DNA of 42,824 nt from Armatimonadota bacterium (GCA_026392155.1 JAPLCP010000155.1:1-42824), one strand, 5' to 3'; shown: positions 1,435-27,142, counted from the stretch's first letter. Translations and numbers: made by a program. Notes: a model not told the origin generated them from the sequence alone.

Positions 1435-2409
1435 ATGAAAACAACGACGATTCTGGCGGCACTGCCGCTGACTGCTATATTGGCGACAAGCGCTCAGGCA
1501 AAGCCGCCGTTTGCGGAAAAAGAGGGTATCAAGTGCACCTACTGTCATAGTGGGATGCAGCCCAAGCGCAACTACCGCGGCGACTACTACAAGCTCCATA
1601 ACCTCTCCTTTGCGGGCTTTGACGATGCCGCCGAGGCGAAAAAAGCGGGTGTGGAGATCGCGCCGCTGGCGGAGCTGAAGCCTAAGAGCCTGACGCCACC
1701 TGCGCCCGCCAAGCCCGTGGAGCCACCCAAGCCCAAGTACAACCCCGTCTACCCTGGGCCTGGAGAAGTGGTCTTTGGCGAAGGCCCAGACGGTATCGTG
1801 AAAGACGGCAAGCCGGTTGCGAAGGGCTGGACATCGCTCTTTAATGGGAAAGACCTTAAGGGCTGGAACCTTGAGAAAGGCTACTGGTCGGTGGTGGACG
1901 GTGCGATTGTGGGAGACAAGAAGGGCAGCACACCCAAGCACCACTATCTCTTCAGTGACATGGACTACTCTGACTTTGAGATGCACATTGATGTGAAGAT
2001 GGATGGCTACAACTCTGGGGTCTGCACACGCATCAAGCCGACGTCGTTTGATGATGCGCCGGGCTACCAGGTGGACATGGGCGAGGGGTACTGGGGCTGT
2101 GTCTGGGACGAGCGCCGCCGTAGCAAGAAGATCTACGACTTCCCCAAGGCCGATGCGGATCAGATTGTCAAGAAGAACGACTGGAACCACTACTACATCC
2201 GCCATGTGGGAACCAAGACCGTGATCTACCTCAACGGTGTCAAGACCGCCGACGGCGACGATCCCGAGGCGTTTCTCTCCGGCCCGATTGGCTTCCAGCT
2301 CTGCCACGGCAACAACACGGTCGCCAGCTTCAAGAATATCTACATCAAGACGCTCGCCAAGCCCACCAAGGGCACTGCACCCAAGAGCGACATGAACCCC
2401 AAGCCGTAG
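1435..2409 (+). CDS. DUF1080 (3-keto-disaccharide hydrolase-like) protein with N-terminal CxxCH motif
   Basis: The 324-aa protein has a Sec signal peptide (residues 1-22, ending AQA). A single c-type heme motif CTYCH follows at residues 34-38. After a Pro/Lys-rich linker (about 85-110), a DUF1080 concanavalin-like domain runs from about 131 to 308, with the typical GWTSLFNGKDLKGWN opening. Family members bind or cleave sugars, some as 3-keto-glycoside hydrolases. The start codon directly follows the TAA of the DUF1501 gene with no spacer, which suggests translational coupling. Joining a heme-binding-like segment to DUF1080 is uncommon in my experience. Whether heme is really attached cannot be told from sequence. 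Confidence 0.85.
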   Translation: MKTTTILAALPLTAILATSAQAKPPFAEKEGIKCTYCHSGMQPKRNYRGDYYKLHNLSFAGFDDAAEAKKAGVEIAPLAELKPKSLTPPAPAKPVEPPKPKYNPVYPGPGEVVFGEGPDGIVKDGKPVAKGWTSLFNGKDLKGWNLEKGYWSVVDGAIVGDKKGSTPKHHYLFSDMDYSDFEMHIDVKMDGYNSGVCTRIKPTSFDDAPGYQVDMGEGYWGCVWDERRRSKKIYDFPKADADQIVKKNDWNHYYIRHVGTKTVIYLNGVKTADGDDPEAFLSGPIGFQLCHGNNTVASFKNIYIKTLAKPTKGTAPKSDMNPKP

Positions 2410-2414
2410 TTTTT

Positions 2415-2500
2415 GTCCGGCCGATCAGAACGGCCGGACTGAAGAGCCTTCGGCTGCGAAGGCCGTTCCGGCCATAATTTGGTATGGCCGGAACGGCCTT
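2415..2500. terminator. Cluster of inverted repeats between convergent genes
   Basis: Three hairpins follow one another: arms 2415-2423/2431-2439 (9 bp, loop 7), 2445-2448/2452-2455 (4 bp), and a perfect 17-bp arm pair 2459-2475/2484-2500 with an 8-nt loop. They lie between the stop at 2409 and the convergent stop at 2543. They probably serve as a bidirectional terminator, although no clear U-tract follows. The GGCCGGAACGGCC-type arms resemble REP-like intergenic repeats; compare 26557-26682. Confidence 0.6.
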
Positions 2501-2542
2501 TGTAGCTTTAGCTCTACAGCCATGCCGTTACAATCGGCGTGG

Positions 2543-3523
2543 CTACCCCGGATACCAGATAACTCGGGGATCTTCTGTGGGACGCTGGTAGTCGTAGGCG
2601 GCGTCTATGAGCTTGGCCGTATCGTAGATGGGTTTCCAGCCGAGGAGAAAGCGTGCCTTGGCGTTGTCGAGCCAGGTGGTGTGAAACTCGGTGGTGACTT
2701 TTACGCTGGGGAAGCCGCGTGTCTGGGCGAGATACTCCGCCACAAAGCCATAGTCCACGGGCTCGTCCATGCAGATATTAAAGGTCTGCTGGCGAGCCTT
2801 TGGATGGTTCAGCGCCGCCAAGATCGCCGTTACCAGATCGCTGACATGCACAAAGTTGCGCTTGATCGGGTTGCCATCGGGATCGCAGAGAACGGGAACC
2901 GTTTGACTGGCCTGGTAGCTGTCCGCCGCCTCAGCCCCGACTAAGTCGCGCCAGCGTGGGCCGCCAAAGACATCGTCGCCGAAGCTCTGCGTGTACTTGA
3001 AATCGTCCTTTTCCATGATCCAGGGCGCACGCAAACAGCAGCCGTTGAGGCCGTACTGGATGTAGTACTGCTCCAGCATCACTTCCTCTAGGACTTTCGA
3101 AAAAGCATAGCAGCCCTGGTAGGCACTGTGGCGCTGGGTCTCGGTGACGGGGATCGGGTGCGGGTAGACAAAGTGTCCCATGCCCGCGTCGCCGCCGATT
3201 AGTACCAGCTGCTCGAACGTCGGGGAGAGCCGCGCCTCTTCGAGTAGCCAGAAGAAGCCCTTGATCGCGACATCCATGATGTCCTCGGGGGTCTCTTTGC
3301 AAGTCGCCAGATGGAGCACATGCGTCACGCCGTCTAGCGCCCGCTTGACATCGTCGCGTGACGACATCGAGCCTTTCACCACTTCCACCCGCTCGCTCGT
3401 CTCCAGCACCCGGTTGTGGCAGAACGCCCGCACAATCGCCCCACTAAAACGCTCGTCGGCGAGAAACGCCTTCACAAATGTCTGCCCGACTTTTCCCGTC
3501 GCACCTGTTACCAAGATTCTCAT
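2543..3523 (-). CDS. NAD-dependent epimerase/dehydratase (extended SDR)
   Basis: The 326-aa cytoplasmic Rossmann protein has the nucleotide-binding motif GATGKVG at residues 7-13 and the catalytic YxxxK as Tyr139-Lys143 (YAFSK). Length and architecture fit extended SDRs that epimerise or dehydrate nucleotide sugars or related substrates; the exact substrate cannot be read. The ATG lies 6 nt downstream of a TATTAT hexamer, with no SD sequence, so the transcript is probably leaderless. The gene is divergent from the BNR-propeller gene and shares its promoter. A second, distantly similar SDR is at 25550-26542. Confidence 0.88.
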   Translation of the reverse strand: MRILVTGATGKVGQTFVKAFLADERFSGAIVRAFCHNRVLETSERVEVVKGSMSSRDDVKRALDGVTHVLHLATCKETPEDIMDVAIKGFFWLLEEARLSPTFEQLVLIGGDAGMGHFVYPHPIPVTETQRHSAYQGCYAFSKVLEEVMLEQYYIQYGLNGCCLRAPWIMEKDDFKYTQSFGDDVFGGPRWRDLVGAEAADSYQASQTVPVLCDPDGNPIKRNFVHVSDLVTAILAALNHPKARQQTFNICMDEPVDYGFVAEYLAQTRGFPSVKVTTEFHTTWLDNAKARFLLGWKPIYDTAKLIDAAYDYQRPTEDPRVIWYPG

Positions 3524-12612: not shown

Positions 12613-13644
12613 CTACAAAAGGCGTGTGACGAACCACCAGAGTCCGGCGAGGCCAATTCCCACGGAGAGCATTTTAAGGAGTGTGGCATGGAGTGTGGGC
12701 TTATCGTCGGCGAGCTTGGCGAGCGCGGGGGCGACCGCAATCACAATCAAGGCTTGTCCACACTCGACGCCGAAGTTAAAGGCTGCCAAGGCAACACCGA
12801 GTGCTTGCTGAGGGAGCCCCACTTCCGAAAGTGCGCCCGCAAAGCCAAAGCCATGGATCAGGCCAAAGCCAAAGGCGAAGACCTCTCCCCTAGCCCCTCT
12901 CCGGCTTCGCGAAGCGGGGGAGATGCGGCGCAGGTTCTCCACCGCAATGGCGACAATCGAGAGTGCGATGAGCGGCTCGACGAGGCGTGGCGAGGGATTC
13001 CAAATGCCCAGGGCCGCGACCGTGAGCGTGATACTGTGGGCCAGCGTAAAGGCCGTGACAGTCTTGAGGAGCGTTTTTAAGCCGCCGCCCAGGAGCAGCA
13101 GGCCCAGCACAAAGCAGACATGATCCGGCCCGCCGAAGATATGGCTGACTCCCTCACGCACAAAGCGCAGAAACACCTGCCAGCGGCTCTCGGGCGGCTC
13201 GTGGCTTAGCAGCAGAGCGGGGTGTGCCGCGTCCAGAACCGTTTCCTGCACCAGGGAGCCCTCACGCAGGACACTGACGACTAGCTTGGAGCTAGGGTCA
13301 TTGGGGTAGAGACGCGCGAGCACCTCGGGGGCGGCCACTTCTTTGTCCAGTGTCGCCTGCCAGGTCACCAGATCGTTGGGATCGTCGCGCAGGAGGTTGG
13401 TTTTCTGCGGCGCGAAGTCCGTGCCGGAGAAGCGCAGCCGGACGCGCCTCCGAAACGCCAGATCCATCGTCAGCGGCTCCAGCGGTTTTCCCTCAGCCTC
13501 GGTAAGCAAGCTGATGTGTGTTGTCACACTCACCACGGTTTTCCCGCCACCGACAATCACCCGCAGCCCCGAGAGCATCGGATCGTGCGCGAGCGCCGGG
13601 AGTGCCATAAGGAGGGCAAGACAGAGGGTGAGGAAGCGGCGCAT
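12613..13644 (-). CDS. HupE/UreJ-family membrane protein
   Basis: The 343-aa protein has a signal peptide (residues 1-19, ending ALA) and an extracytoplasmic N-terminal domain to about residue 160. About six transmembrane helices follow. The family motif GPDHVCFVLGLLLLGGG, the AHSITLT helix and GLIHGFGFAGAL are all present. HupE/UreJ proteins are linked to nickel or cobalt uptake, but many members in other neighbourhoods have no known substrate. The ATG shares one base with the TAA of the upstream YHYH gene, so the two are translationally coupled. A Ser/Arg-rich insert at about residues 240-254 comes from a palindromic repeat. Confidence 0.85.
   Translation of the reverse strand: MRRFLTLCLALLMALPALAHDPMLSGLRVIVGGGKTVVSVTTHISLLTEAEGKPLEPLTMDLAFRRRVRLRFSGTDFAPQKTNLLRDDPNDLVTWQATLDKEVAAPEVLARLYPNDPSSKLVVSVLREGSLVQETVLDAAHPALLLSHEPPESRWQVFLRFVREGVSHIFGGPDHVCFVLGLLLLGGGLKTLLKTVTAFTLAHSITLTVAALGIWNPSPRLVEPLIALSIVAIAVENLRRISPASRSRRGARGEVFAFGFGLIHGFGFAGALSEVGLPQQALGVALAAFNFGVECGQALIVIAVAPALAKLADDKPTLHATLLKMLSVGIGLAGLWWFVTRLL
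12883..12925. repeat. REP-like palindrome inside the HupE-type gene
   Basis: The segment shows CTCCCCTAGCCCC followed by a CTTCGCGAAG turn and a GCGGGGGAG return arm. Its layout resembles the type-A elements and 39045-39076. It is in frame and falls in a loop between predicted helices. Confidence 0.55.
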
Positions 13645-14648
13645 TAGTTGGGAGGAAGCTCCGTTTTGCCCAGGAGCTTGAGACCATCGGCGCTGTACTG
13701 ATAGAGCGTGTTACCGCGCTGGATAAAGAGAAACTGCCCTCGTCCTGCCATACTTGCGCCACCTGGCTGCCCGCCGCCGACTCCTCCGGGAGGCCCCCCG
13801 GGGCCACGTCGCTGGAAGCTGGCATCGGGCTTGCCACGGAACTTGCGGGGGATGAAGGGATAGGAATCCGTGAGGACATAGTAATATGTGCCCTTGGGAA
13901 ACTCGGGAGTCACGCCGTAGCGCCCGTTCCAGGGGTCGAGATCGCCGCTGCCTTTGGTAAACTCAAAGTCACTCTCAAACGAGCCGTCGTAGGCTCCGCC
14001 GGGGCCATCGCCACTCTCACGGTTGCCGCTCTTGAGCTTGTAGCTGGCCTTGAGCTTCTTCAGCGGCGATTTGGCGCTGGCTGCGCTGCTGTAGCCGTAG
14101 TTTCCGTAGATCGGGTAGCCATCGGCGGCCCAGCCTACTAGCGCCATCTTATGTTGCCAGTCCAGCTTCTTGAGTAGGCCCATCGGCATTCCGTGGTAGT
14201 GGTACGCCCCATTGGGCTGCACATGCGCGAGGTTGTCGTCCACGCCCAGACCGCCGCGTGCGCCCATAAAGCCCGTCATTGCCTCGTAGCGCCACTGGCG
14301 GTTGCCGTTCCAGAACTCCGCCGTTGTCGGGTCAAACGTGACACCATTGACCGCGATCCCAAAGTTCTGCCCCGTGTCCGTCCCACCGTTCTCATCGGGC
14401 TCTGGCTTGACCGGCACACGGAACGCGTAGTTCTGCGGCGAGATGGAGTTGGGATTCCCCCGGTTGGGAAACTGCCCCGTCACATGGTCGGGAATCCCAT
14501 TGGCCGTGATATAGCGAAAGCCCTCGCGAACCTCGATCTTAACCTCGTTCTTAAAGCCCCCTGCTGTCTGACTCTGTGCTCGAAGCGCGATCGTGGCAGT
14601 CAGTGTCGTTGCCAGCCCCGTGATAAGAAAAAGCGTGTTGCGTTTCAT
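13644..14648 (-). CDS. Exported YHYH-domain protein
   Basis: The 334-aa protein has a Sec signal (cleavage near ALRAQS). Its YHYH domain includes the name-giving GAYHYHGMP at about residues 150-158 and GWAADGYPIYGNYGY. The YHYH family is defined by this His/Tyr motif and its function is unknown; the His residues suggest metal binding, which is inference. A Pro/Gly-rich stretch (about 283-303, QRRGPGGPPGG type) precedes the C terminus, which ends with a short strand-rich segment. The promoter carries the TTCATG-type box at 14674-14689 and a TAAAAT -10 box 9 nt from the ATG. The gene is coupled to the HupE gene downstream. A second YHYH protein is encoded at 16644-18134. Confidence 0.85.
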   Translation of the reverse strand: MKRNTLFLITGLATTLTATIALRAQSQTAGGFKNEVKIEVREGFRYITANGIPDHVTGQFPNRGNPNSISPQNYAFRVPVKPEPDENGGTDTGQNFGIAVNGVTFDPTTAEFWNGNRQWRYEAMTGFMGARGGLGVDDNLAHVQPNGAYHYHGMPMGLLKKLDWQHKMALVGWAADGYPIYGNYGYSSAASAKSPLKKLKASYKLKSGNRESGDGPGGAYDGSFESDFEFTKGSGDLDPWNGRYGVTPEFPKGTYYYVLTDSYPFIPRKFRGKPDASFQRRGPGGPPGGVGGGQPGGASMAGRGQFLFIQRGNTLYQYSADGLKLLGKTELPPN

Positions 14649-14657
14649 CGTGCTCTG

Positions 14658-14689
14658 ATTTTAAGCTGATCCAATGAAGAAGTCATGAA
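14658..14689 (-). promoter_or_regulatory. Direct-repeat box E and -10 of the YHYH-hupE operon
   Basis: On the minus strand, TTCATGACTTCTTCAT (14689-14674) is followed by a 10-nt spacer and TAAAAT (14663-14658). The half-sites repeat every 11 bp and occupy the place of a -35 box, as expected for an OmpR/PhoB-type activator. Confidence 0.7.
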
Positions 14690-14711
14690 GCAGATAAGCT
14701 GAGGGGGCAAT

Positions 14712-15245
14712 CTATTCAAACCGCGGAAAGAAGAACCCAGCGAAGACTTTTGCGAGAGGTTTTGTCGAAATTTGTCGGGCGTTGAGAATCGTGTAGTCAC
14801 CATTCGGGGTGACTTTTTCCTCGATCATAAAGACATCCGTGATTGGGTTTTTATCGCTGTCATGAATGATGTTTCGTCGCACCAGAAAGCCGCCCGAGAC
14901 TGCCTGAGTAGTTGTCCCAAAGTAGCCCGAAGACGCACGTGTTCCCACTGGCTGAACCTCGGCCCAAGCTCGCTCTTTTGGGAAGTCTTGCATGAAGTAC
15001 CAGGTTGTCTCTGAGGTTCTGAGTCGGACAAAATCAAGCGCGGCTTCCGGTGAAGAAACCTCAACTTTGTCTTTGAACTGAGAAAGCGTGGTGATTTTTG
15101 TACGCTGCTTACCCTCTTCAAGATAAAGTTTTACAAATGCCTCAAGAGGATAACCAATTAGACCATTGTGAGGAATATCAATAATGAGTTTTCCCTTGAC
15201 ACGAAACAATGTCTTGATTGGTTTTCCTATATCTGGATAGTGCAT
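14712..15245 (-). CDS. 177-aa hypothetical protein of lower GC
   Basis: The ATG at 15245 lies 4 nt after the stop of the stalk-domain gene. Longer starts would run antisense-like through that gene's end. There is no signal peptide or transmembrane segment, and the family is not recognised. The protein is strand-rich, with RVKGKLIIDIPHNGLIGYP near the start and a hydrophobic, aromatic end (VFAGFFFPRF). The coding region is visibly richer in A+T than its neighbours, especially 15070-15240, suggesting recent acquisition. No SD sequence precedes the start, so translation may depend on coupling. Confidence 0.65.
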   Translation of the reverse strand: MHYPDIGKPIKTLFRVKGKLIIDIPHNGLIGYPLEAFVKLYLEEGKQRTKITTLSQFKDKVEVSSPEAALDFVRLRTSETTWYFMQDFPKERAWAEVQPVGTRASSGYFGTTTQAVSGGFLVRRNIIHDSDKNPITDVFMIEEKVTPNGDYTILNARQISTKPLAKVFAGFFFPRFE

Positions 15246-15249
15246 CGTG

Positions 15250-15933
15250 TTAGTCGCAGTTGGGGCGGACGATTGCCTTGACATCCACGCGGAAAGTCGG
15301 ATCGGGGACGGTGAAGCGAAGCGCGGTTCCGGTAAGGCCTTTGGGATCAAAGCGCAGGATCAGACGGACGGGTTTGCTCGCGGACTCCGTCTCAAAAAGC
15401 AGTGTTTGGGTGTTGCCTGCTCCCTGTGCCAGCCCAGAATCGCGTAGCTCGGGGGCATCGGAGCGGGCAGGGATCGAGTTGCCGTCCTCTAGTACCAGAG
15501 TCACGCCTTGCCAGCCGGTTCCCGCGGGCGCAACACCGCCAAACTTGCTGCCATTGCGAATCTCAACTTTTACTTTCCAGCCCATTCCCTCGGTGGTGGG
15601 ATCGGCTTTCTCGACGCTCATCACTTGAAAGCGCCAGATGCCATTGAAGAGCCACTCGCCGCCTTTGCCCTCAACGGCATTTTGTTGGTTCGCTCCACCC
15701 GCACCTATGGTTGTGGAAGCCGTAGGTAGTGTCAGCTCGACGCCGCCACGGGTGTACCGCACGCCCACTCCTGCGGCTTTGAGTGCGTCTGCCGAGACAT
15801 ACGTCGTCCCTTTGACCACGACAGCGCCTGCTGGTATGGATTTTCCATTGATCCGCAGGCTTAGTGCCTGCTGGGCCGCGGCCATCGAGGCCACGGCCAG
15901 AGTGACGATTCCCAGTCCGTAGATACGTTTCAT
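15250..15933 (-). CDS. Exported stalk-domain (copper amine oxidase N-like) protein
   Basis: The 227-aa protein has a signal peptide (residues 1-20, ending AAA). It is followed by a small stalk-like domain: SLRINGKSIPAGAVVVKGTTYVSADALKAAGV and VELTLP, as in PF07833 stalk domains. The rest is beta-rich and resembles a DUF4352-like or Ig-like extracellular fold (residues about 95-225), which I cannot assign firmly. A clear GGGAG ribosome site precedes the ATG. A possible TAGAAT -10 box lies 20 nt upstream, so the gene may have its own promoter as well as read-through from the YHYH/PEBP gene. Confidence 0.75.
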   Translation of the reverse strand: MKRIYGLGIVTLAVASMAAAQQALSLRINGKSIPAGAVVVKGTTYVSADALKAAGVGVRYTRGGVELTLPTASTTIGAGGANQQNAVEGKGGEWLFNGIWRFQVMSVEKADPTTEGMGWKVKVEIRNGSKFGGVAPAGTGWQGVTLVLEDGNSIPARSDAPELRDSGLAQGAGNTQTLLFETESASKPVRLILRFDPKGLTGTALRFTVPDPTFRVDVKAIVRPNCD

Positions 15934-15966
15934 CTTCGGGTTCTCCCAAAGAGATTCTACCCTGAA

Positions 15967-16647
15967 TTAGCGCAAGGGGAACCCGGAGACATCCAGATCG
16001 GGTTTGGTTGTCCAGCGGGCTTTCCAGCCGGGTTTTTCGATCTTGGTGCGGAAGAGAACGGTATTGTCTTTGTCTAGGTCGCTGGTCCAGATAAACTTTG
16101 CGCCCTCGAAGTTGTAGTCGTAGTAGGGCTTTTTGGGGTTGACGCGCTGAGGGGTGAACTCGGTGGCGCTGTCCCACTTGGAGTCATCGAAGCTGGGGAG
16201 ATACCAGCTGGTCGGGATCGGCTCGTACTTGACAGGCGGGGCGCTGAAAATACGCTTGGCCTTCCACTTGGCATCGCTGATGGTGCCATCGCTGAACTTC
16301 AGCACAAAGCCACCATCACCGATATGGTCGCCGTACTCAAAGCCGGTTTTCGGGTCGGCGTTGTCCTTGGCGATAATGGCGATTGTCATCGGGTACTCGG
16401 GGAGAATATTGACATTGACGACATTGTGCGGCAGGAAGTCAATCGGATCCACGGCGACTAATTTCCCGTTGATGTACATCGCAAACCAGTTGTCGGCGTA
16501 GATATTGGCCTGGATCACATCACCCATCTCAGGCTTGATGATCCCTGCTTGGCCGCCACGCGGTGGCTGTGCTATCGCCAGAGCGAGGCTTCCTGCGCCG
16601 ACCAGAGCACCCAGAAAAAACGGGAGCTGCTTCTTAAATTTCATCAT
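15967..16647 (-). CDS. Exported hypothetical protein, galactose-binding-like
   Basis: The 226-aa protein has a signal peptide (residues 1-26, ending AIAQ) directly followed by PPRGGQAG. The body carries features often seen in carbohydrate-binding jelly rolls: ADNWFAMYINGKLV, FDDSKWDSATEF, and VLFRTKIEKPGW near the end. No catalytic motif is visible. The start overlaps the TGA of the YHYH/PEBP gene (ATGA), so the two are translationally coupled and the products may act together outside the cytoplasm. Confidence 0.75.
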   Translation of the reverse strand: MMKFKKQLPFFLGALVGAGSLALAIAQPPRGGQAGIIKPEMGDVIQANIYADNWFAMYINGKLVAVDPIDFLPHNVVNVNILPEYPMTIAIIAKDNADPKTGFEYGDHIGDGGFVLKFSDGTISDAKWKAKRIFSAPPVKYEPIPTSWYLPSFDDSKWDSATEFTPQRVNPKKPYYDYNFEGAKFIWTSDLDKDNTVLFRTKIEKPGWKARWTTKPDLDVSGFPLR

Positions 16648-18134
16648 TCGGACCTTTGTCTTTCGTAGGCGACATTGAGCACCGACGCGCTCAGAATCTT
16701 GCCCTCCATGGCTTTCAAGAGCGCATCACGAGTCACGCCCGACGAGGCATCGAGCTTGACTTGATCGGAGAGGGCGTAGAGCGTCAGGATGTACCATTTC
16801 TTGCCCGGCCCTTGTGAGCAGGGCGGCGCGTACTGACTGCGGCGGTTGACTGTATTGACCCCCCGCGCTCCAATCGCCCGATCGTTCTGTGGAATCGCCT
16901 TGATGTCCGGGGAGATATTGTAGGCGAGCCAGTAGACATGAGGCGCTTCCGTCTCACCAGGCGGGTAGTGGTGCATCACCAGCGCGAACGACTTGGTTCC
17001 CGCTGGTGCGTTCTTCCACGCCACGGGCGGCGAGGCGCTCTCACCGTCGCAGGTGAAGGCTTTGGGAAGAAGCCCGCCATTCTCCACTACCGAGCTAATG
17101 AGCTGAAAATCCGTGGGCTTGGCAGGCGTGATGGTCGGTCCGGGACGCTCTTGTGGACGACCACGGCCCTGATTTTGTTGCCTACCCTGTCCGCCGCCTT
17201 GGCCGCGCTGTGGGTAGTTGAGCGTGATCGCCCTGCCTTCCGGGTTGACATAGTCAAACGTGTAGCTGCCGTTGTCTTCCACTTTGTAGTTCACAAGGCA
17301 TGTCTGGCCCTGGATCACATAGGTCAGCGAGTAGCTACCCGGTGTGGGGCGCGAGAACGCTGTGATCTTGGCACCGGGCAGAGGCGGCGTGTCCGGGCGC
17401 GGGCTCTGAGCACGCGGCTGTGGGTCCACCTGCCCTCCAATCTCCTGTACCTCACCGTGGAAACCGCCGTTGAGATAGGGATAGGTCTTTGTCCCGTGGT
17501 AGTGGTAGCCGATAGCCGATGTGGTGTGCCCGTTGAACGCATCCAGCCCGGTGACGGGCTTGCCATCAGGCTCGCTCTGCCCGTAGATCGCGTAGCCGTC
17601 CAGGGCGTAGGCAATGGGCTTGCCCTTCCCGACAAGCTTTTCGAGATAGAGCGGTGCGATATGGTAGTGGTAGTCGTCGGCGCGGCCACAGTGCCCACCA
17701 AACTCATCCAGCTCTCCGATCTTAAATGAGTCCACCCCCCGGTTATTGAGCGCATTGAAGATCGGGACACCATCGGCGGCAAGGGCCATTGCGCCCCGGA
17801 AAAAGTGGGTCTTGCCTGAGAGCGGATTGGCGGCAGGGACGGGCCTCAGCGGAAACTGCCAGGCGTTGCTACCCACATAGCGCTGAGGAATTGGCACCTG
17901 CTGCTGCCACGCCGTGATCCCGACCATCAGCGGGTGATCCGGCATCCCATCCGACTCGACATAGAAGTTCTTCGCATCCGCGCGAGTCTTCACTTTCGGC
18001 GCAAAAGGCTTAAAGCTCGCCGCAATCGCCTCCACGGTTGAGGACGATGTTACGGTCTGACGGTGTGCCGCAATGGCAATCACCGGCACCGCCGCCAGCC
18101 CGAGTGCCGAGAACAACCAGAGTCTTGGTTTCAT
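16644..18134 (-). CDS. Exported YHYH domain fused to YbhB/YbcL (PEBP) domain
   Basis: From the ATG at 18134 (chosen by the -10 box 7 nt upstream and the signal peptide MKPRLWLFSALGL...) the protein has 496 aa. An N-terminal YHYH domain shows DDYHYHIAPLY, ALDGYAIYG and a second IGYHYHGTK. A Gly/Gln/Arg/Pro-rich linker of about 30 residues follows. A C-terminal YbhB/YbcL Raf-kinase-inhibitor-like domain then shows FTCDGESASPPVAW, HVYWLAYNI, QYAPPCSQGPGKKWYILTLYAL. The PEBP fold binds anionic ligands and in bacteria has no settled role. Box C lies upstream, and the gene overlaps the next one by 4 nt. Confidence 0.85.
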   Translation of the reverse strand: MKPRLWLFSALGLAAVPVIAIAAHRQTVTSSSTVEAIAASFKPFAPKVKTRADAKNFYVESDGMPDHPLMVGITAWQQQVPIPQRYVGSNAWQFPLRPVPAANPLSGKTHFFRGAMALAADGVPIFNALNNRGVDSFKIGELDEFGGHCGRADDYHYHIAPLYLEKLVGKGKPIAYALDGYAIYGQSEPDGKPVTGLDAFNGHTTSAIGYHYHGTKTYPYLNGGFHGEVQEIGGQVDPQPRAQSPRPDTPPLPGAKITAFSRPTPGSYSLTYVIQGQTCLVNYKVEDNGSYTFDYVNPEGRAITLNYPQRGQGGGQGRQQNQGRGRPQERPGPTITPAKPTDFQLISSVVENGGLLPKAFTCDGESASPPVAWKNAPAGTKSFALVMHHYPPGETEAPHVYWLAYNISPDIKAIPQNDRAIGARGVNTVNRRSQYAPPCSQGPGKKWYILTLYALSDQVKLDASSGVTRDALLKAMEGKILSASVLNVAYERQRSE

Positions 18135-18141
18135 AGTCGCT

Positions 18142-18173
18142 ATTATCCTGGAAAGAAATGAAGCATGCATGAA
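18142..18173 (-). promoter_or_regulatory. Direct-repeat box C and -10 of the YHYH/PEBP operon
   Basis: TTCATGCATGCTTCAT (18173-18158), a 10-nt spacer, then GATAAT (18147-18142), which is 7 nt from the ATG at 18134. This is the best match to the consensus and would give an almost leaderless transcript. Confidence 0.75.
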
Positions 18174-18185
18174 GACGTAGAATGT

Positions 18186-19538
18186 CTACTTCTTGGTGAA
18201 CTCGTGGCTAAAGGCCTTAGATGCCTCGCCGTTTTCGGTTCGCACAAACGTAAAGCTTGCTTTTTGTGGTGTCACACTGAGCTTGATAATCCCGGAGCCA
18301 TCGAGCATCTTGCCTTGTTTGTAGCCGTACTCCTCGGCGCTACGGCTGCCACCACCGCGCCCGTGACTGGGCTGGGGGACACACTGGTAGATGATGCCAT
18401 CCACTTCCTGGTGTGCGAAGAGATGATCGTGGCCGTGGAAGACCGCACTGACCTTGTTTTTCAGTAGGAGCTGATGGATGGGCGCGTCCCAGCCAGGACG
18501 TTTTTCTTTGAAGGCATCGGTGCCATCGGCGCTCTTGCCGCCCCACTCCCAGAGCGGCGCCGCCTCTGCGCCCCCGCGTCCGTCGCGGCCCAGCCCCCCG
18601 ACGAGATTATGGATAAAGACAAACTTCCACTTTGCCTTGCTGGTTTCCAGGGTCTTCTTGAGCCAGTCATACTGCTCTTTGCCAAGCGTCACGTACCAGT
18701 TGTCAGTGATCTCGTTGGCACCTCCGTTGCCGTTCTGGCCGCCGCGACGAGGACGATTGGTGGTGTGCCCGTAGGGATCGAGGCCGATGAGAAGCGCATC
18801 GCCGGACTCGTAGGCCCAGTGGTTCTCGGGGGCGCTAGGGAAGTAGCGCAGCCGCTCCTGCTGCGACCAAGAGGCCATCTCCCGATCCGCGCCACGTTCA
18901 CCGTCGTGGTTGCCCGGCACCATCAAGACAGGAACGTGGGCCTGGTCGAAGTAGTAGCGCTGGGCAATATACTGCGCGTGGGCGTCTTTGAAGTTGGGGT
19001 ACTTGTCGGTCATGAACGTGTCGCCCAGGTCCACCATGAAGTCTGTGTCGCGCATCGCGGCCAGCGAGCGCAGATAGACCGCCTGTACGCTTCCGCCATC
19101 GAGGTGGGAGTCGGCCTGTATCGAGAAAGCCATGGGGCTCCCGGCGGGGCGTGTGGTCACAAAGCTCCGCTCGGGCGAGGCAGATTTCTCAAACTTCACC
19201 TGCCAGTAGACCCGTGCCCCCGGCGCAAGCCCCTTCAGCTCCAGCACAACCGGCTCGCCCTTGGGGAACTTGGTGCGCGGCAGGCTCTTGGTCAGCTTTC
19301 CGGGCGCACTGCCGTAGACCAAGCTTCCCTCGGAGTCGGTGTAGCACAGCACGCTTACCGTTGCGCTTGTCTTGGTGACCCGCCCGACTACCATATCGTA
19401 GTCATGCACCGGAACCTCCGTCCGATAGACCACCGGCGGCCCGCCCTGCCGCCGTCCCTGAATTCCCCCCCCTCCCCCCCGCTCGGCGGGGGGGAAGGGG
19501 GAGGATAAAACGAGCAGAAGAGCAAGTACGAGCTTCAT
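18186..19538 (-). CDS. Exported purple acid phosphatase-like metallophosphoesterase
   Basis: The 450-aa protein has an N-terminal hydrophobic signal, an Fn3-like domain (about residues 45-125), and a calcineurin-like catalytic domain. Metal-ligand motifs in order are QADSHLDG, DLGDTF, PGNHDG, FIHN and GHDH. This matches dinuclear metallophosphoesterases of the purple acid phosphatase type, which hydrolyse phosphate esters outside the cytoplasm. A palindromic repeat encodes residues about 12-25, so the signal cleavage region is unusual. Further Gly/Arg-rich loops occur in the catalytic domain. The ATG overlaps the sulfatase TGA by 4 nt, and a GGAGGAGGA ribosome site precedes it. Confidence 0.88.
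   Translation of the reverse strand: MKLVLALLLVLSSPFPPAERGGGGGIQGRRQGGPPVVYRTEVPVHDYDMVVGRVTKTSATVSVLCYTDSEGSLVYGSAPGKLTKSLPRTKFPKGEPVVLELKGLAPGARVYWQVKFEKSASPERSFVTTRPAGSPMAFSIQADSHLDGGSVQAVYLRSLAAMRDTDFMVDLGDTFMTDKYPNFKDAHAQYIAQRYYFDQAHVPVLMVPGNHDGERGADREMASWSQQERLRYFPSAPENHWAYESGDALLIGLDPYGHTTNRPRRGGQNGNGGANEITDNWYVTLGKEQYDWLKKTLETSKAKWKFVFIHNLVGGLGRDGRGGAEAAPLWEWGGKSADGTDAFKEKRPGWDAPIHQLLLKNKVSAVFHGHDHLFAHQEVDGIIYQCVPQPSHGRGGGSRSAEEYGYKQGKMLDGSGIIKLSVTPQKASFTFVRTENGEASKAFSHEFTKK
19462..19503. repeat. REP-like C/G-tract palindrome in the metallophosphoesterase signal region
   Basis: C-tracts, a CGCTCGGCG turn and a G-tract return arm form a hairpin like the type-A elements. It is in frame and encodes SPFPPAERGGGGG at the end of the signal peptide. 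Confidence 0.6.
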
Positions 19539-20926
19539 AGTCCTCCTCCTCCCTGACCTTTCTTGCGACCGCCTTGGCCACCCCCGCCGCCCTTACCGCC
19601 ACGCTTGATATTGGTCTCGGTGGGCTTGCTGGGATCGTAGTCAGGGTTGATGGTTGCAAACTGGGCATTGATCTCTTTGAGATAGTCCGTCAGGCGCTTC
19701 TCCAGATCGGCACGCTTCTCGGGTTGAGCCGGCGCGACATCGGTGCGCTCCGACGGGTCTTTGGCAATGTCGTAGAGCTGGACGCTGCCCGTCTCGTAGA
19801 ACTTGATCAGCTTCCAGTTGCCCAGAACGATCGCCGATGCCGGGCCGCCGTTGTCAAAATCATAGTGGGGGAAGTGGAAGAAAAGCCCCTCACGGGAGCG
19901 CTTGACCACGCCCGTGCCGCCGGACTTGAGAATCGGCAGGAGGCTCCCGCCCTCGATCCCTGTCGGCAGGCTCTTGAGCCCGGCGAGGCTGGCGATGGTG
20001 GGGAAGAGATCGACGCCTGTGGCGGGGACATTGGAGGTGGTATTTGCCGCGATCCCAGGGCCTTTGACGAGAAGTGGGACACGAATCCCGCCCTCAAGGA
20101 CGTGGCCTTTGCCGCCGCGCAGGGGGAAGTTGCGTCCCGGCGTCCCGTGGTCCGTGGTGTAGAGAATATAGGTATTGCTCTCGGCGTTTTGTGCCTTGAG
20201 CGCCTGCATCAGCTCCCCAAGCACCTTGTCCATGTCCTCCTGCGCCTTGTCTTCTTTGCTGGCGTACTGGTCGAGCTGGAGGTAGAAGGGCTTGCCCGCC
20301 TTGAGCTGCTCGGTGATAAATGTCACGCTCTTCTGGCCCGTGAGCGGGGTCTGCTCGGTGCTGGGATCGGCGCTATTGTCGGGGCCGCCGTTGTTATTGG
20401 GGCCATCATTGACCGGGAACCCGTGGCGGCTGGGGTTGGCACGCCCGACATGCCACTTCCCAAAGTGCGCCGTGGCATAGCCCTCGCTCTGGAGCAGCTC
20501 AGCAATCGTGGTCTCGCGCTCCGCAAGCTCGGTGCTGGTCTGTGGGGCGCGCAGTTTAGTATTGCCCACTTCGCCTTGCCTGCCCTCATTGACAAAGGTC
20601 ATGTGGAGCTGTGCCGGGCTCTTTCCCGTGAGCAGCGCCGCCCGCGAGGGCGTGCAGCGTGGTGAGGCGGCGTAGAACTGCGAGAAACGCATCCCGCCTT
20701 GGGCAAGCGCCTCGAAGTGGGGCATCCGGACACCATTGTTCTTTGCACTCGGGCTTTTCGGGTCTTGCGCAAAGGGCAGGCTACTCCAGCCATGGCCCTC
20801 GCCCTCAATCACGATAAAGTTAGGTCGCTTCGCTGCACTTTGTGAGTGCGCCTGTGCATTCTTTACAGGAGTGTTTCCTAGCAAAAGGCACCCACCCAGC
20901 AGTGTAAAAGAGAGAACTTTTTTCAT
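19535..20926 (-). CDS. Exported sulfatase with atypical metal-site motif
   Basis: From the ATG at 20926 (signal peptide MKKVLSFTLLGGCLLLG..., box A and -10 just upstream) the protein has 463 aa. The formylglycine signature CTPSR in ASPRCTPSRAALLTGKSP is intact. GKWHVG, TTDHGTPGRN, GGKGHVLEGGIRVP and the C-terminal LYDIAKDPSE segment are also typical. The usual N-terminal DD calcium ligands are replaced by IEGEGHGW, which is unusual. The C terminus ends in a Gly/Gln/Lys-rich tail. It should cleave sulfate esters if active; activation by a formylglycine-generating enzyme elsewhere is assumed. Earlier starts up to 21001 would cover the promoter. Confidence 0.88.
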   Translation of the reverse strand: MKKVLSFTLLGGCLLLGNTPVKNAQAHSQSAAKRPNFIVIEGEGHGWSSLPFAQDPKSPSAKNNGVRMPHFEALAQGGMRFSQFYAASPRCTPSRAALLTGKSPAQLHMTFVNEGRQGEVGNTKLRAPQTSTELAERETTIAELLQSEGYATAHFGKWHVGRANPSRHGFPVNDGPNNNGGPDNSADPSTEQTPLTGQKSVTFITEQLKAGKPFYLQLDQYASKEDKAQEDMDKVLGELMQALKAQNAESNTYILYTTDHGTPGRNFPLRGGKGHVLEGGIRVPLLVKGPGIAANTTSNVPATGVDLFPTIASLAGLKSLPTGIEGGSLLPILKSGGTGVVKRSREGLFFHFPHYDFDNGGPASAIVLGNWKLIKFYETGSVQLYDIAKDPSERTDVAPAQPEKRADLEKRLTDYLKEINAQFATINPDYDPSKPTETNIKRGGKGGGGGQGGRKKGQGGGGL

Positions 20927-20933
20927 ACTCCTC

Positions 20934-20965
20934 AGAATTGCCGAAAAAAATGAATTCCGCATGAA
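20934..20965 (-). promoter_or_regulatory. Direct-repeat box A and -10 of the sulfatase operon
   Basis: TTCATGCGGAATTCAT (20965-20950), a 10-nt spacer, then a weak AATTCT (20939-20934) that keeps the key A2 and T6. The -10 lies 7 nt from the ATG at 20926. Confidence 0.65.
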
Positions 20966-20974
20966 TCCCAAAGC

Positions 20975-21011
20975 AAAACGAGGCATGAAGTCGCACTTCA
21001 TGCCTCGTTTT
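20975..21011 (-). terminator. Intrinsic terminator of the LTxxQ gene
   Basis: Perfect 17-bp arms (20975-20991 and 20995-21011) enclose a 3-nt loop. Read on the minus strand, the stem starts 13 nt after the stop codon at 21025 and ends in TTTT. It separates the LTxxQ gene from the sulfatase promoter. Confidence 0.8.
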
Positions 21012-21024
21012 TAGGGGGGATAGG

Positions 21025-21492
21025 CTAGCCGCCGCCTTTGCCACCCTTGCCCGCCTTACCGCCGCCACCTGCACCGCCCGCGGGAGGGCCACCAGGACCA
21101 CCTTGGCCACGGCCACCACCTTGACCACCGCGCTGGCTGCTGCGAATCTCTTCCAGCTTCTTTTTCTGCTCTGGGGTCAGAACCGAATTAATCTGATCAG
21201 TGTGCTTGGTGCGTAGTGCCGTCATTTCCTCACGCTGCTTGTCGGTGATGCCCTGAAGTTTTGTCTTCTGTGCCTCGGTTAGCCCCAGCTGCTCCAGAGT
21301 CTCCATCGTCATCCCACCGCCACGCTGGCCACCACCACGCTGACCGCCGCCGGGGCCGCCTTGACCACGACCACCGCCTTGACCACCGCCTTGGCCACGT
21401 CCACCACCACCTGCGGGAGGCTGAGCCGAGGCAAGCACGCCAAGAGCTAGCACCGCAACGAGAGAAACCATCATCGATCGAGTTGTTTTCAT
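21025..21492 (-). CDS. Exported LTxxQ (Spy/CpxP-like) protein with Gly-rich flanks
   Basis: From the ATG at 21492 (AAGGAG 11 nt upstream; the GTG at 21504 sits too close to that SD) the protein has 155 aa. It has a Sec signal ending ASA and a Gly/Gln/Arg-rich segment of about 35 residues. A helical core contains LTEAQKTKL and LTPEQKKKL, which are two LTxxQ repeats. A second Gly/Pro/Lys-rich tail ends the protein. LTxxQ proteins such as Spy, CpxP and ZraP are periplasmic chaperones or metal binders controlled by two-component systems. The divergent response regulator gene and box D fit that pattern. Confidence 0.8.
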   Translation of the reverse strand: MKTTRSMMVSLVAVLALGVLASAQPPAGGGGRGQGGGQGGGRGQGGPGGGQRGGGQRGGGMTMETLEQLGLTEAQKTKLQGITDKQREEMTALRTKHTDQINSVLTPEQKKKLEEIRSSQRGGQGGGRGQGGPGGPPAGGAGGGGKAGKGGKGGG

Positions 21493-21516
21493 GGAAATAT
21501 CCACTCCTTCAACGCC

Positions 21517-21548
21517 GTTATATTCCTAAAAAATGAAAAATGAATGAC
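21517..21548 (-). promoter_or_regulatory. Direct-repeat box D and -10 of the LTxxQ gene
   Basis: GTCATTCATTTTTCAT (21548-21533), a 10-nt spacer, then TATAAC (21522-21517). The TCAT half-sites are 11 bp apart. It is the most diverged of the five boxes but has a good -10 in exactly the expected place. Confidence 0.65.
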
Positions 21549-21567
21549 GGCAACATCTCAAATCTTA

Positions 21568-21600
21568 TTCATGCCAGATTCATCTTTTTCGCGGCACAAT
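21568..21600 (+). promoter_or_regulatory. Direct-repeat box B and -10 of the two-component operon
   Basis: TTCATGCCAGATTCAT (21568-21583), an 11-nt spacer, then CACAAT (21595-21600). It suggests autoregulation of the response regulator. It is divergent from box D, with 19 nt between the boxes. Confidence 0.65.
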
Positions 21601-21610
21601 GGAGGCTACG

Positions 21611-22282
21611 ATGCGTGTGCTGGTTGTAGAGGATGACGACGTGATTGCGGGCCTGCTTCAGCAAGGACTCGAAGACGTAGGGTACTCGGTTGTGGTGGCC
21701 TACGATGGCCGTGAGGGTTTGCGTGAGGCGAGCGAGGGTGTGTTTCACCTGATCTTACTCGACATCATGCTGCCGGGGCTAGATGGCATGGCGGTCTGTA
21801 AAGCCCTGCGGGATCGGCGCAACCGCACGCCGATTCTGATGCTCACGGCGCGCGATGGCATAGACGATAAAGTGCGTGGCCTCGATAGCGGAGCCGATGA
21901 CTATCTGGCCAAGCCCTTTGATTTTAAAGAGCTACTCGCGCGGGTGCGCGCTCTCACCCGGCGGGAGCGGGCACAGAAGAGCAATCTGGTTCGGGTCGCG
22001 GACCTTGAGATTGATACCCTGGAGCACGTGGTGCGGCGTGGTGGGCGCGAGCTAGGGCTTAGCCACCGAGAGTTCGAGCTTCTCCTGGCACTGGCATCGC
22101 ACGAGCGGCAGGTCTTCACCCGTGCGATGATCCTAGAGCGGGTCTGGATGAGCGAGCCCACCAGCTCAAATGTGGTCGATGTTTTTATTAAGTCGCTACG
22201 CAAGAAAGTGGACGAAGGCCACGAGGTCAAGCTGATCCAGACGGTCTGGGGTGTAGGCTACACCCTGCGAGGCCCGGAGTGA
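21611..22282 (+). CDS. OmpR-family response regulator
   Basis: The ATG at 21611 has GGAGG 5 nt upstream and gives 223 aa. The receiver domain shows the acidic pair in VVEDDD, the phosphoacceptor Asp51 (LLDIMLPG), the conserved Thr in LTARDG and Lys101 in LAKPF. The C-terminal winged helix (about 128-222) shows the GRELGLSHREFELL and VWGVGYTLRG signatures of the OmpR/PhoB class. Such proteins bind direct repeats with 11-bp spacing, exactly what is seen at boxes A-E, so this gene is the likely regulator. It overlaps the kinase gene by 4 nt (GTGA). Confidence 0.93.
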   Translation: MRVLVVEDDDVIAGLLQQGLEDVGYSVVVAYDGREGLREASEGVFHLILLDIMLPGLDGMAVCKALRDRRNRTPILMLTARDGIDDKVRGLDSGADDYLAKPFDFKELLARVRALTRRERAQKSNLVRVADLEIDTLEHVVRRGGRELGLSHREFELLLALASHERQVFTRAMILERVWMSEPTSSNVVDVFIKSLRKKVDEGHEVKLIQTVWGVGYTLRGPE

Positions 22283-23607
22283 GGCGCACGCTGATCCTCT
22301 GGAATACCGTGGCCTTGCTGGTGCTCTTTGGCACTCTCGGTGTGGTCGTGCGGCAGATCGTGAAAGCGGGCATGTACGGGGTGGTAGATCGTGAGCTGCA
22401 GCTCCGTGCCCAGCGCTTTATCGAGCGCCCTCCCCGATTTGAAGGCAGTAATCCCAACCGCCGTCCCCCAAAAGGCCAGGCAGACCCATTCAAGCCCCAC
22501 CGCTACGATCTCAACGGACAGTCCATGATGCAGCCAGGCAGGCCGCTCTGGGACGAAGCTGCGTTTGCACGGGCTCGGGAAGGGGAGGCGCTCACCACGA
22601 CCATCAAGAGCGATGGCGAGCCGCTTCGGGTGCTCTCGCTGCCGGTACGGGAGCAGGGGATCGTCATGGGAGTGGTGCAGGTTACCTACCCCGTGGCGGA
22701 AGTCGAGCGGGCGGGGCTCTTGCTGGATCGGGCACTGGTCGCCTTTATTCCGTTCGTCTTACTGGCGGCTTGGGGAGGGGCAATGCTCCTCACCAACCGC
22801 GTCTTGCAGCCCGTCAAGCAGCTCACCAAGGCGGCGGCACTGCTCAGCGCCCAGACCCTCTCTGAGCGCCTTCCGGTCAGTGGCGACGATGAGTTTGCGA
22901 CTTTGGCGACGACGTTTAATGGCATGCTGGAGCGGCTGGAGGTTGCCTTTGAGCAACAAAAACGCTTCACGGCAGATGCGAGCCACGAGCTAAAGACACC
23001 CCTGACACGTCTCAAGGGCATGGCCAGCATGGCACTCGTCGGCCCCCCGACACCCGAGCGCTTGCTCGCGACCCTCCAGAACATTGACCGCGCCTCCGAC
23101 ACCATGACGACTCTGGTGCAAGACTTGCTGCTCCTGGCTCGCGGCGATGCCGGGCACCTCGGTGAGAGCCGAAGCGATGTCTCTGCGCAGAGCTTGCTGG
23201 AGCAGGCACGAGAGCGCGTGCTACGCCCCGGCACCGCGCCGATCACCCTCCGTGTCGAGGACGAAGCGCTGACCTACTGGGGCAATGAGTCCGAGCTACT
23301 GCGCCTGCTGACCAACCTGCTCGAAAACGCCCTGCGCCACACGCCACCTGAGGGAAGTATCACGGTTTGTGCTCAGCCGAGTCGCATCACCGTGACCGAT
23401 ACGGGAAGTGGGATCGCGCCGGAGCACCTCCCCCGGCTCGGGGAGCGCTTCTACCGCGTGGATAGTGCCCGCGCCCGCCTCGATGGCGGAACTGGCCTGG
23501 GACTCGCTCTCTGCAAAAGCATTGTACAGGCGCACGGTGGGACCGTTTCATTTACCAGTGCGCCAGGCCAGGGAACCACCGTGACCGTGCAGCTCGCTGA
23601 GCTATGA
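22279..23607 (+). CDS. Sensor histidine kinase
   Basis: The 442-aa protein starts with GTG overlapping the regulator stop. Transmembrane helices lie at about 6-28 and 151-173, enclosing a periplasmic sensor region of about 120 residues with a Pro/Arg-rich middle. A HAMP domain follows, then the H-box SHELKTPLTRLKG with His236. The N-box NLLENALRHTPP, DTGSGIAPEHL, FYRVD and GGTGLGLALCK complete the ATPase domain. The layout resembles CusS/QseC-like kinases. The stimulus is unknown; the sensor region shows no recognised ligand motif. Confidence 0.93.
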   Translation: MRRTLILWNTVALLVLFGTLGVVVRQIVKAGMYGVVDRELQLRAQRFIERPPRFEGSNPNRRPPKGQADPFKPHRYDLNGQSMMQPGRPLWDEAAFARAREGEALTTTIKSDGEPLRVLSLPVREQGIVMGVVQVTYPVAEVERAGLLLDRALVAFIPFVLLAAWGGAMLLTNRVLQPVKQLTKAAALLSAQTLSERLPVSGDDEFATLATTFNGMLERLEVAFEQQKRFTADASHELKTPLTRLKGMASMALVGPPTPERLLATLQNIDRASDTMTTLVQDLLLLARGDAGHLGESRSDVSAQSLLEQARERVLRPGTAPITLRVEDEALTYWGNESELLRLLTNLLENALRHTPPEGSITVCAQPSRITVTDTGSGIAPEHLPRLGERFYRVDSARARLDGGTGLGLALCKSIVQAHGGTVSFTSAPGQGTTVTVQLAEL

Positions 23608-26686: not shown

Positions 26687-27142
26687 CTATTTCGCCTCGG
26701 GAATTTTTGTGGTCTGCCAGGCGGCGAACTTCCACTCGCCCTTTTGCCGCGTCCAGACCTCGGTGAAGCGTGCCTTGAACGCAACGTCGTTCTCGCCCGC
26801 CTTCACCTTCACTTCTGCAACTCCCGTAATAACCACGGTGTTGGCGTAGGTCTGGTGTTTCTTCTCCGAAAGAGTTACGGCCAGATACTTGGTCGTGCCG
26901 GTCTTCATCGCCTCCAGCAGCGTCTCTTTGGTGTCCATCTTGCCGCTGGAGTGCGTGTAAGTTAGGTCTTTGGTGAAGATCGTCTCCAGTGCCGCCAGAT
27001 CACCCTTTACCATCGCCTCGATGCGCTTGGTATCCGCCGCATTGGTTGCTTCAATCGCTTCTGCGCGGGTGGGGCTCTTCTGCTGAGCAAAAACGGGTGC
27101 GGAGACCACAAGGGCCGCACAGACAAAAAGTGAGCTTTTCAT
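26687..27142 (-). CDS. Exported DUF4440 (NTF2-like) protein
   Basis: The 151-aa protein has a signal peptide (residues 1-19, ending VFA) and an NTF2-like fold of the DUF4440 type. It shows a helical start (AIEATNAADTKRIEAMVKGDLAAL), then IFTKDLTYTHSSGKM and a final FTEVWTRQKGEWKFAAWQTTKI strand pair. Such domains bind small ligands or act as isomerase-like folds; no function is assigned. A perfect extended -10 box lies 6 nt upstream of the ATG without an SD, so the mRNA is probably leaderless. Confidence 0.88.
   Translation of the reverse strand: MKSSLFVCAALVVSAPVFAQQKSPTRAEAIEATNAADTKRIEAMVKGDLAALETIFTKDLTYTHSSGKMDTKETLLEAMKTGTTKYLAVTLSEKKHQTYANTVVITGVAEVKVKAGENDVAFKARFTEVWTRQKGEWKFAAWQTTKIPEAK

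Follow-up and report, generated by a model that had tools for sequence, protein, structure and literature searches.

Among the closest described counterparts of the system studied here is CopRS of Synechocystis, in which the CopR site is given as TTCATN4-5TTCAT (PMC4182526; Giner-Lamia 2012) and for which array data show only copMRS and copBAC to be under control (PMC4182526). Read directly from pSYSX, the copM (TTCATCCTGATTTCAT) and copB (TTCATCTTGGTTTCAT) promoters carry TTCAT-N6-TTCAT, with CAGACT 10 nt on from the copM box. We analysed a 42,824-nt stretch of DNA from an Armatimonadota bacterium (GCA_026392155.1 JAPLCP010000155.1:1-42824; hereafter the window), in which five promoters within 7 kb carry boxes of this type, one of them in front of a gene for an OmpR/PhoB-family response regulator. 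The window regulator combines a receiver with a Trans_reg_C domain and adjoins a HAMP/HisKA kinase, the arrangement of an OmpR/PhoB-type two-component activator. As in CopRS, an OmpR-type regulator in autoregulatory position is found with its kinase alongside and with equal box and -10 spacing. The two systems differ in that Synechocystis CopR is a member of the RppA model (384 bits), whereas the window regulator is not an RppA equivalog (189.8 bits, cut-off 250); the regulon predicted here is also larger, and the resistance-nodulation-division operon of CopRS is lacking in the window. The window regulator would work like CopR while falling outside the CopR model.

Three further systems share parts of this arrangement. 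As for E. coli CusRS and HprRS, the best NCBIfam models for the window regulator and kinase are the heavy-metal models TIGR01387 (CztR/SilR/CopR/CusR; 239.5 bits) and TIGR01386 (heavy-metal kinase; 212.9 bits), though both scores lie under the cut-offs of 279.2 and 292.55. Even with two mismatches allowed, TTCAT-N6-TTCAT is absent between cusR and cusC of E. coli, which means that heavy-metal regulators cannot all be presumed to use it. The pho box is likewise built of 11-bp direct repeats, with the -10 about 10 nt further on, and the E. coli phoB promoter (TTCATAAATCTGTCAT-N10-CATAAT) is one mismatch from the window pattern; the pho box differs in having half-sites of the GTCAT type, and phosphate genes are not recurring targets here. 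CpxRA with CpxP/Spy resembles the window in placing an LTXXQ periplasmic protein beside an OmpR-type system, but the best model for the window regulator is TIGR01387 rather than CpxR, and the window LTXXQ protein scores far under the Spy and CpxP cut-offs.

Box architecture and conservation

The five boxes reported by the initial annotation were recovered at the same coordinates and strands (Table 1), four as exact TTCAT-N6-TTCAT and the one before the LTXXQ gene (21548-21533) as GTCAT-N6-TTCAT, with one mismatch. The -10-like hexamer that it described 10 nt (11 in one case) past each box can be read at all five, AATTCT being weak, and its gene identities and regulator start at 21611 were borne out by Pfam and sequence, an alternative ATG at 21599 overlapping the -10. 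Dinucleotide shuffles of the window gave 1.1 matches at ≤1 mismatch against five observed, and none of 100 shuffles reached five. TTCAT pairs in the window and its 7-kb block occur as four exact copies at N6, which gives an 11-bp repeat, and as one copy or none at every other spacing from 1 to 15. The whole own genome (G000, 4.77 Mb) holds only 12 exact copies, four of them inside the 7-kb block, and 168 copies at ≤1 mismatch. Besides the half-sites, about 7-8 boxes each in G000 and in a genome of the same genus (G001) have a common inner GACTTC (TTCATGACTTCTTCAY), for example that at 14674-14689.

Across 291 Armatimonadota genomes, the full pattern TTCAT-N6-TTCAT-N10-TANNNT occurs exactly at 115 sites in 46 genomes, compared with only 20 sites in 17 genomes for a control with one extra spacer base (N7). 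This control took the place of a reversed-pattern control, which was judged to be skewed by the frequent ATGAA at the beginning of genes. The box is present in 41 of the 85 genomes with the regulator and in 5 of the 206 without it (Fisher P = 1e-20; N7 control, P = 0.05), P values that overstate independence because the genomes are related by descent. Of the 115 sites, 109 fall in genomes holding a close relative of the window regulator, and 17 stand before a member of its family, at a distance of 15-112 nt. The positions left free in the pattern tend to be promoter-like, the third base of the -10 inclining to T and the fifth to A (TATAAT consensus), and the base before the second half-site to a pyrimidine.

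All five boxes are kept before relatives of their genes, as compared among homologues from genomes of which many are incomplete, with simple longest open reading frame (ORF) calls for the phylum set. In G001, whose regulator is 91% identical to the window regulator, the order hupE, YHYH, phosphoesterase, sulfatase, LTXXQ, regulator, kinase is kept and four boxes remain, that of YHYH reading TTCATGACTTCTTCAC (L130:9630). The YHYH-PEBP block is missing from this locus; an orthologue elsewhere in G001 (L160, 66% identity) has the box, as does that in G010 (L214, 50% identity). Boxes also precede YHYH homologues in G000 (C68), G063 and G070, and the HupE_UreJ_2 homologues in G059 and G060 have boxes of their own. 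Throughout genus g5 (G005, G009, G010, G011) the regulator is divergent to the sulfatase, followed by the phosphoesterase where the contig extends that far; here the sulfatase box is exact in all four genomes and the regulator box is found, with one mismatch, in three. The LTXXQ box is kept in G001 and many other genomes.

For the regulator itself, a box at ≤1 mismatch lies in the 300-bp upstream segment of 34 of 42 homologues versus 51 of 6652 control segments (0.8%). The box also stands before the homologous regulator at six Acidobacteria loci (five exact, one with a mismatch), and CACAAT (once CAAAAT) lies 11 nt past it in G001 and in five of these six, as in the window. Cytophagaceae homologues (~44% identity) have no convincing box upstream. 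We also observed an exact TTCATGCCAAATTCAT on the opposite strand, ~140 nt upstream of a 44%-identical regulator in the actinobacterium Mycolicibacterium houstonense (L089).

Predicted mode of action and controlled genes

Sequence comparison strongly supports the conservation of the box, of its spacing and of its tie to the regulator, together with the autoregulatory position. The regulator at 21611 very probably binds the TTCAT-N6-TTCAT boxes and activates transcription. Two phosphorylated monomers of this OmpR/PhoB-type protein would occupy the tandem TTCAT half-sites head to tail on one helix face, and since 10-11 nt separate the downstream half-site from the -10, the regulator would replace the -35 element and recruit RNA polymerase (class II activation). 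It would activate its own regulator-kinase operon, four divergent or downstream units in the window, and genes of envelope and redox function scattered over the rest of the genome. We infer physical binding, phosphorylation dependence, the direction of control and the signal. The CopR recognition mode (TTCAT-N6-TTCAT, with a -10 ten bases on) appears conserved in cyanobacteria, Armatimonadota and Acidobacteria. Few regulons have been characterised in the little-studied phylum Armatimonadota, for which the comparison supplies a specific DNA motif together with its predicted regulator.

The initial annotation had named the adjoining regulator as the binder of an autoregulatory, -35-replacing activator box shared by four target promoters, and this proposal gains comparative support. 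It had further drawn the system as a single linked block, a reading that we reject because the promoter type is dispersed over the genome, standing also before a YHYH paralogue, a di-haem oxidoreductase (DHOR), a di-haem peroxidase, a multicopper oxidase and others. Its description of the system as undescribed does not hold for the box, which is the Synechocystis CopR site with the geometry of a pho box; the set of genes in the regulon does appear undescribed in the literature searched. That search returned no paper linking YHYH and LTXXQ and no relevant paper on YHYH function, and a structure search by sequence with the window YHYH protein found no structure.

Phylum-wide, the 108 proteins downstream of boxes include the regulator (16), LTXXQ (12), DHOR (6), DUF1559 pseudopilins (6) and YHYH (5), followed by HlyD/CusB-like proteins (4), Dioxygenase_C of the intradiol type (4), MauG (3), TolC-like OEP (2), HupE (2) and CusF (2); extracytoplasmic function (ECF) sigma factors and DUF5666 also recur. 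In G014 the box precedes a MacA-like gene, after which come genes for a MacB-like permease and an ABC ATPase. Copper-handling genes downstream of boxes are CusF (2/108), CusB-like (4/108) and the multicopper oxidase of G000, with none inside the window. YHYH, DUF5666, HupE_UreJ_2 and DHOR, families without an assigned role, are placed under predicted copper/redox or envelope-stress control.

Nature of the signal and competing explanations

The kinase would most likely sense copper, or an oxidative or envelope stress linked to it. The box itself and the multicopper oxidase, CusF and CusB-like targets speak for copper, and we judge a copper/redox signal to be an even call. The same promoter mechanism might instead answer to general envelope protein-folding stress in the manner of Cpx/Spy, with LTXXQ as feedback partner of the kinase. 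LTXXQ and MacAB favour this reading: only the regulator is a more frequent target than LTXXQ, which is divergent to it in the window, and MacAB/TolC export genes and secreted proteins predominate among the targets. Set against this, the box is identical to the copper-responsive CopR site, the targets include CusF, multicopper oxidase and di-haem peroxidase, and the heavy-metal kinase model scores best for the window kinase, so that we consider general envelope stress a real but lesser possibility. LTXXQ proteins also act in metal sensing (ZraP, CnrX).

Several observations weigh against a copper-responsive regulon under one CopR-like regulator. The window regulator falls short of the curated thresholds for CopR/CusR, RppA and PhoB and shares only 38% identity with CopR of Synechocystis; no obvious His/Met copper site is seen in the sensor domain of the kinase; and nothing about the sulfatase, pseudopilins or ECF sigma factors as targets hints at copper. 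Family f14 (at least 84 genomes) has the regulator in 31 genomes and exact boxes in 3 only. In the own genome, a paralogous regulator-kinase pair (C132, L359) is divergent to an LTXXQ-like gene and has similar variant boxes (TTCAG-N6-TTCAC and TTCAC-N6-TTCAC, with -10s TACAAT/TACTAT), which may reflect cross-talk or diverged specificity; some boxes may therefore belong to another regulator. If several paralogues shared the boxes, the five promoters would belong to an overlapping network rather than to one regulator, as these C132 boxes, the exact box at the equivalent LTXXQ promoter in G001 (C2:1454960) and the 2-4 close regulator paralogues of several genomes could suggest. We think such a network rather unlikely: the paralogues at C28 and C98 of G000 have no box at ≤1 mismatch, so the box is not common to all paralogues, and the sulfatase-phosphoesterase unit stays linked to the window-type regulator in all four g5 genomes.

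The phosphoesterase and sulfatase genes, with the near-match of the E. coli phoB promoter, could also point to pho boxes and a phosphate-starvation regulon. This very improbable reading was rejected on model scores (CopR 239.5 versus PhoB 198.3 bits for the window regulator), on downstream families, Pst and PhoU not being among the 25 commonest, and on a separate and better PhoB/PhoR candidate at G000:C83 (PhoB 245.9 bits, CopR 161.4; PnpS/PhoR kinase). That the boxes are chance AT-rich motifs resembling -35 elements has a negligible probability; gene starts with ATGAA do yield frequent TTCAT on the opposite strand, but spacing specificity, conservation at homologues and the 34/42 against 0.8% rule chance out at the comparative level.

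For the copper/redox reading as a whole, we propose only tentatively that a deeply conserved subfamily of CopR-like regulators runs a regulon for copper/redox defence of the envelope, not described before, throughout Armatimonadota, and at least autoregulates in Acidobacteria. If so, YHYH, HupE_UreJ_2, the DHOR/MauG peroxidases, the multicopper oxidase-peroxiredoxin fusion and the thioredoxin-like selenoproteins would for the first time be given a shared physiological role.

Predicted transcription units and dispersed targets

Overlapping gene ends in the window suggest the units YHYH-hupE-..., YHYH-PEBP-ORF-ORF-ORF, sulfatase-phosphoesterase, LTXXQ and regulator-kinase (Table 1). Several low-mismatch sites of the own genome lie inside genes and were left out of the count of targets elsewhere.

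Table 1. Boxes, -10 hexamers and genes of the window, and box-type promoters elsewhere in G000 and G001
Feature	Location	Strand	Remarks
Box 1, TTCATGACTTCTTCAT	14674..14689	-	upstream of YHYH-hupE; orthologous gene in G001 keeps box
-10 of box 1, TAAAAT	14658..14663	-	spacer 10 nt
Box 2, TTCATGCATGCTTCAT	18158..18173	-	upstream of YHYH-PEBP; boxes at orthologues in G001, G010
-10 of box 2, GATAAT	18142..18147	-	spacer 10 nt
Box 3, TTCATGCGGAATTCAT	20950..20965	-	upstream of sulfatase-phosphoesterase; kept in G001, G005, G009, G010, G011
-10 of box 3, AATTCT (weak match)	20934..20939	-	spacer 10 nt
Box 4, GTCATTCATTTTTCAT	21533..21548	-	upstream of LTXXQ; G001 orthologue GTCATCAATTCTTCAT
-10 of box 4, TATAAC	21517..21522	-	spacer 10 nt
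Box 5, TTCATGCCAGATTCAT	21568..21583	+	upstream of response regulator, autoregulatory position
-10 of box 5, CACAAT	21595..21600	+	spacer 11 nt
HupE/UreJ_2-like membrane protein	12613..13644	-	PF13795 E 2e-44; overlaps YHYH
YHYH protein	13644..14648	-	PF14240 E 2e-63
ORF	15250..15933	-	no Pfam match; predicted operon with YHYH-PEBP
Secreted-like ORF	15967..16647	-	no Pfam match; overlaps YHYH-PEBP, predicted shared operon
YHYH + PEBP two-domain protein	16644..18134	-	PF01161 E 4e-22, PF14240 E 1e-9
Calcineurin-like phosphoesterase (Metallophos)	18186..19538	-	PF00149 E 4e-11; overlaps sulfatase
Sulfatase	19535..20926	-	PF00884 E 3e-41
LTXXQ (Spy/CpxP-like) periplasmic protein	21025..21492	-	PF07813 E 9e-8; CpxP/Spy models weak
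OmpR/PhoB-family response regulator	21611..22282	+	PF00072 + PF00486
Membrane sensor histidine kinase	22279..23607	+	HAMP, HisKA, HATPase (Pfam)
YHYH paralogue	G000:C68		box-type promoter
DHOR	G000:C227		box-type promoter, also in G001
CCP_MauG di-haem peroxidase	G000:C41		box-type promoter; identical 32-bp site in G001
Multicopper oxidase fused to AhpC/TSA-redoxin domain, 633 aa	L369 (G000:C95), ORF 1493-3394		box with one mismatch
ECF-like sigma factor	G000:C129		box with one mismatch, both G000 and G001
hemA	G000:C179		box-type promoter, both G000 and G001
Thioredoxin-like ORFs with in-frame TGA	L366 (G000:C71), L368 (G000:C119)		box-type promoters
Thioredoxin-like ORF with in-frame TGA	L371 (G001:C7)		box-type promoter

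The three thioredoxin-like ORFs L366, L368 and L371 are probable selenoproteins. Their in-frame TGA lies within the common segment (C)xGVSG(I/M)W-TGA-PGK and is followed on its 3' side by a stem-loop in which L366 (GACAAGAGTCTCTTGTC) and L371 (GACAGGAGTCTCCTGTC) differ by a paired change, and SelB of the own genome scores above its model cut-off.

Elsewhere in the own genome, three TTCAT-like half-sites that recur every 11 bp precede an ABC ATPase where a contig ends (L012, G000:C130:68677-68719). At four of the five window boxes the -10 lies only ~6-10 nt before the start codon (genes starting at 14648, 18134, 20926 and 21611), and the window genes at 27142, 30199 and 41304 likewise have a -10 close to the start codon. 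Distances this short suggest that transcripts with no leader, or almost none, are common in the genome.

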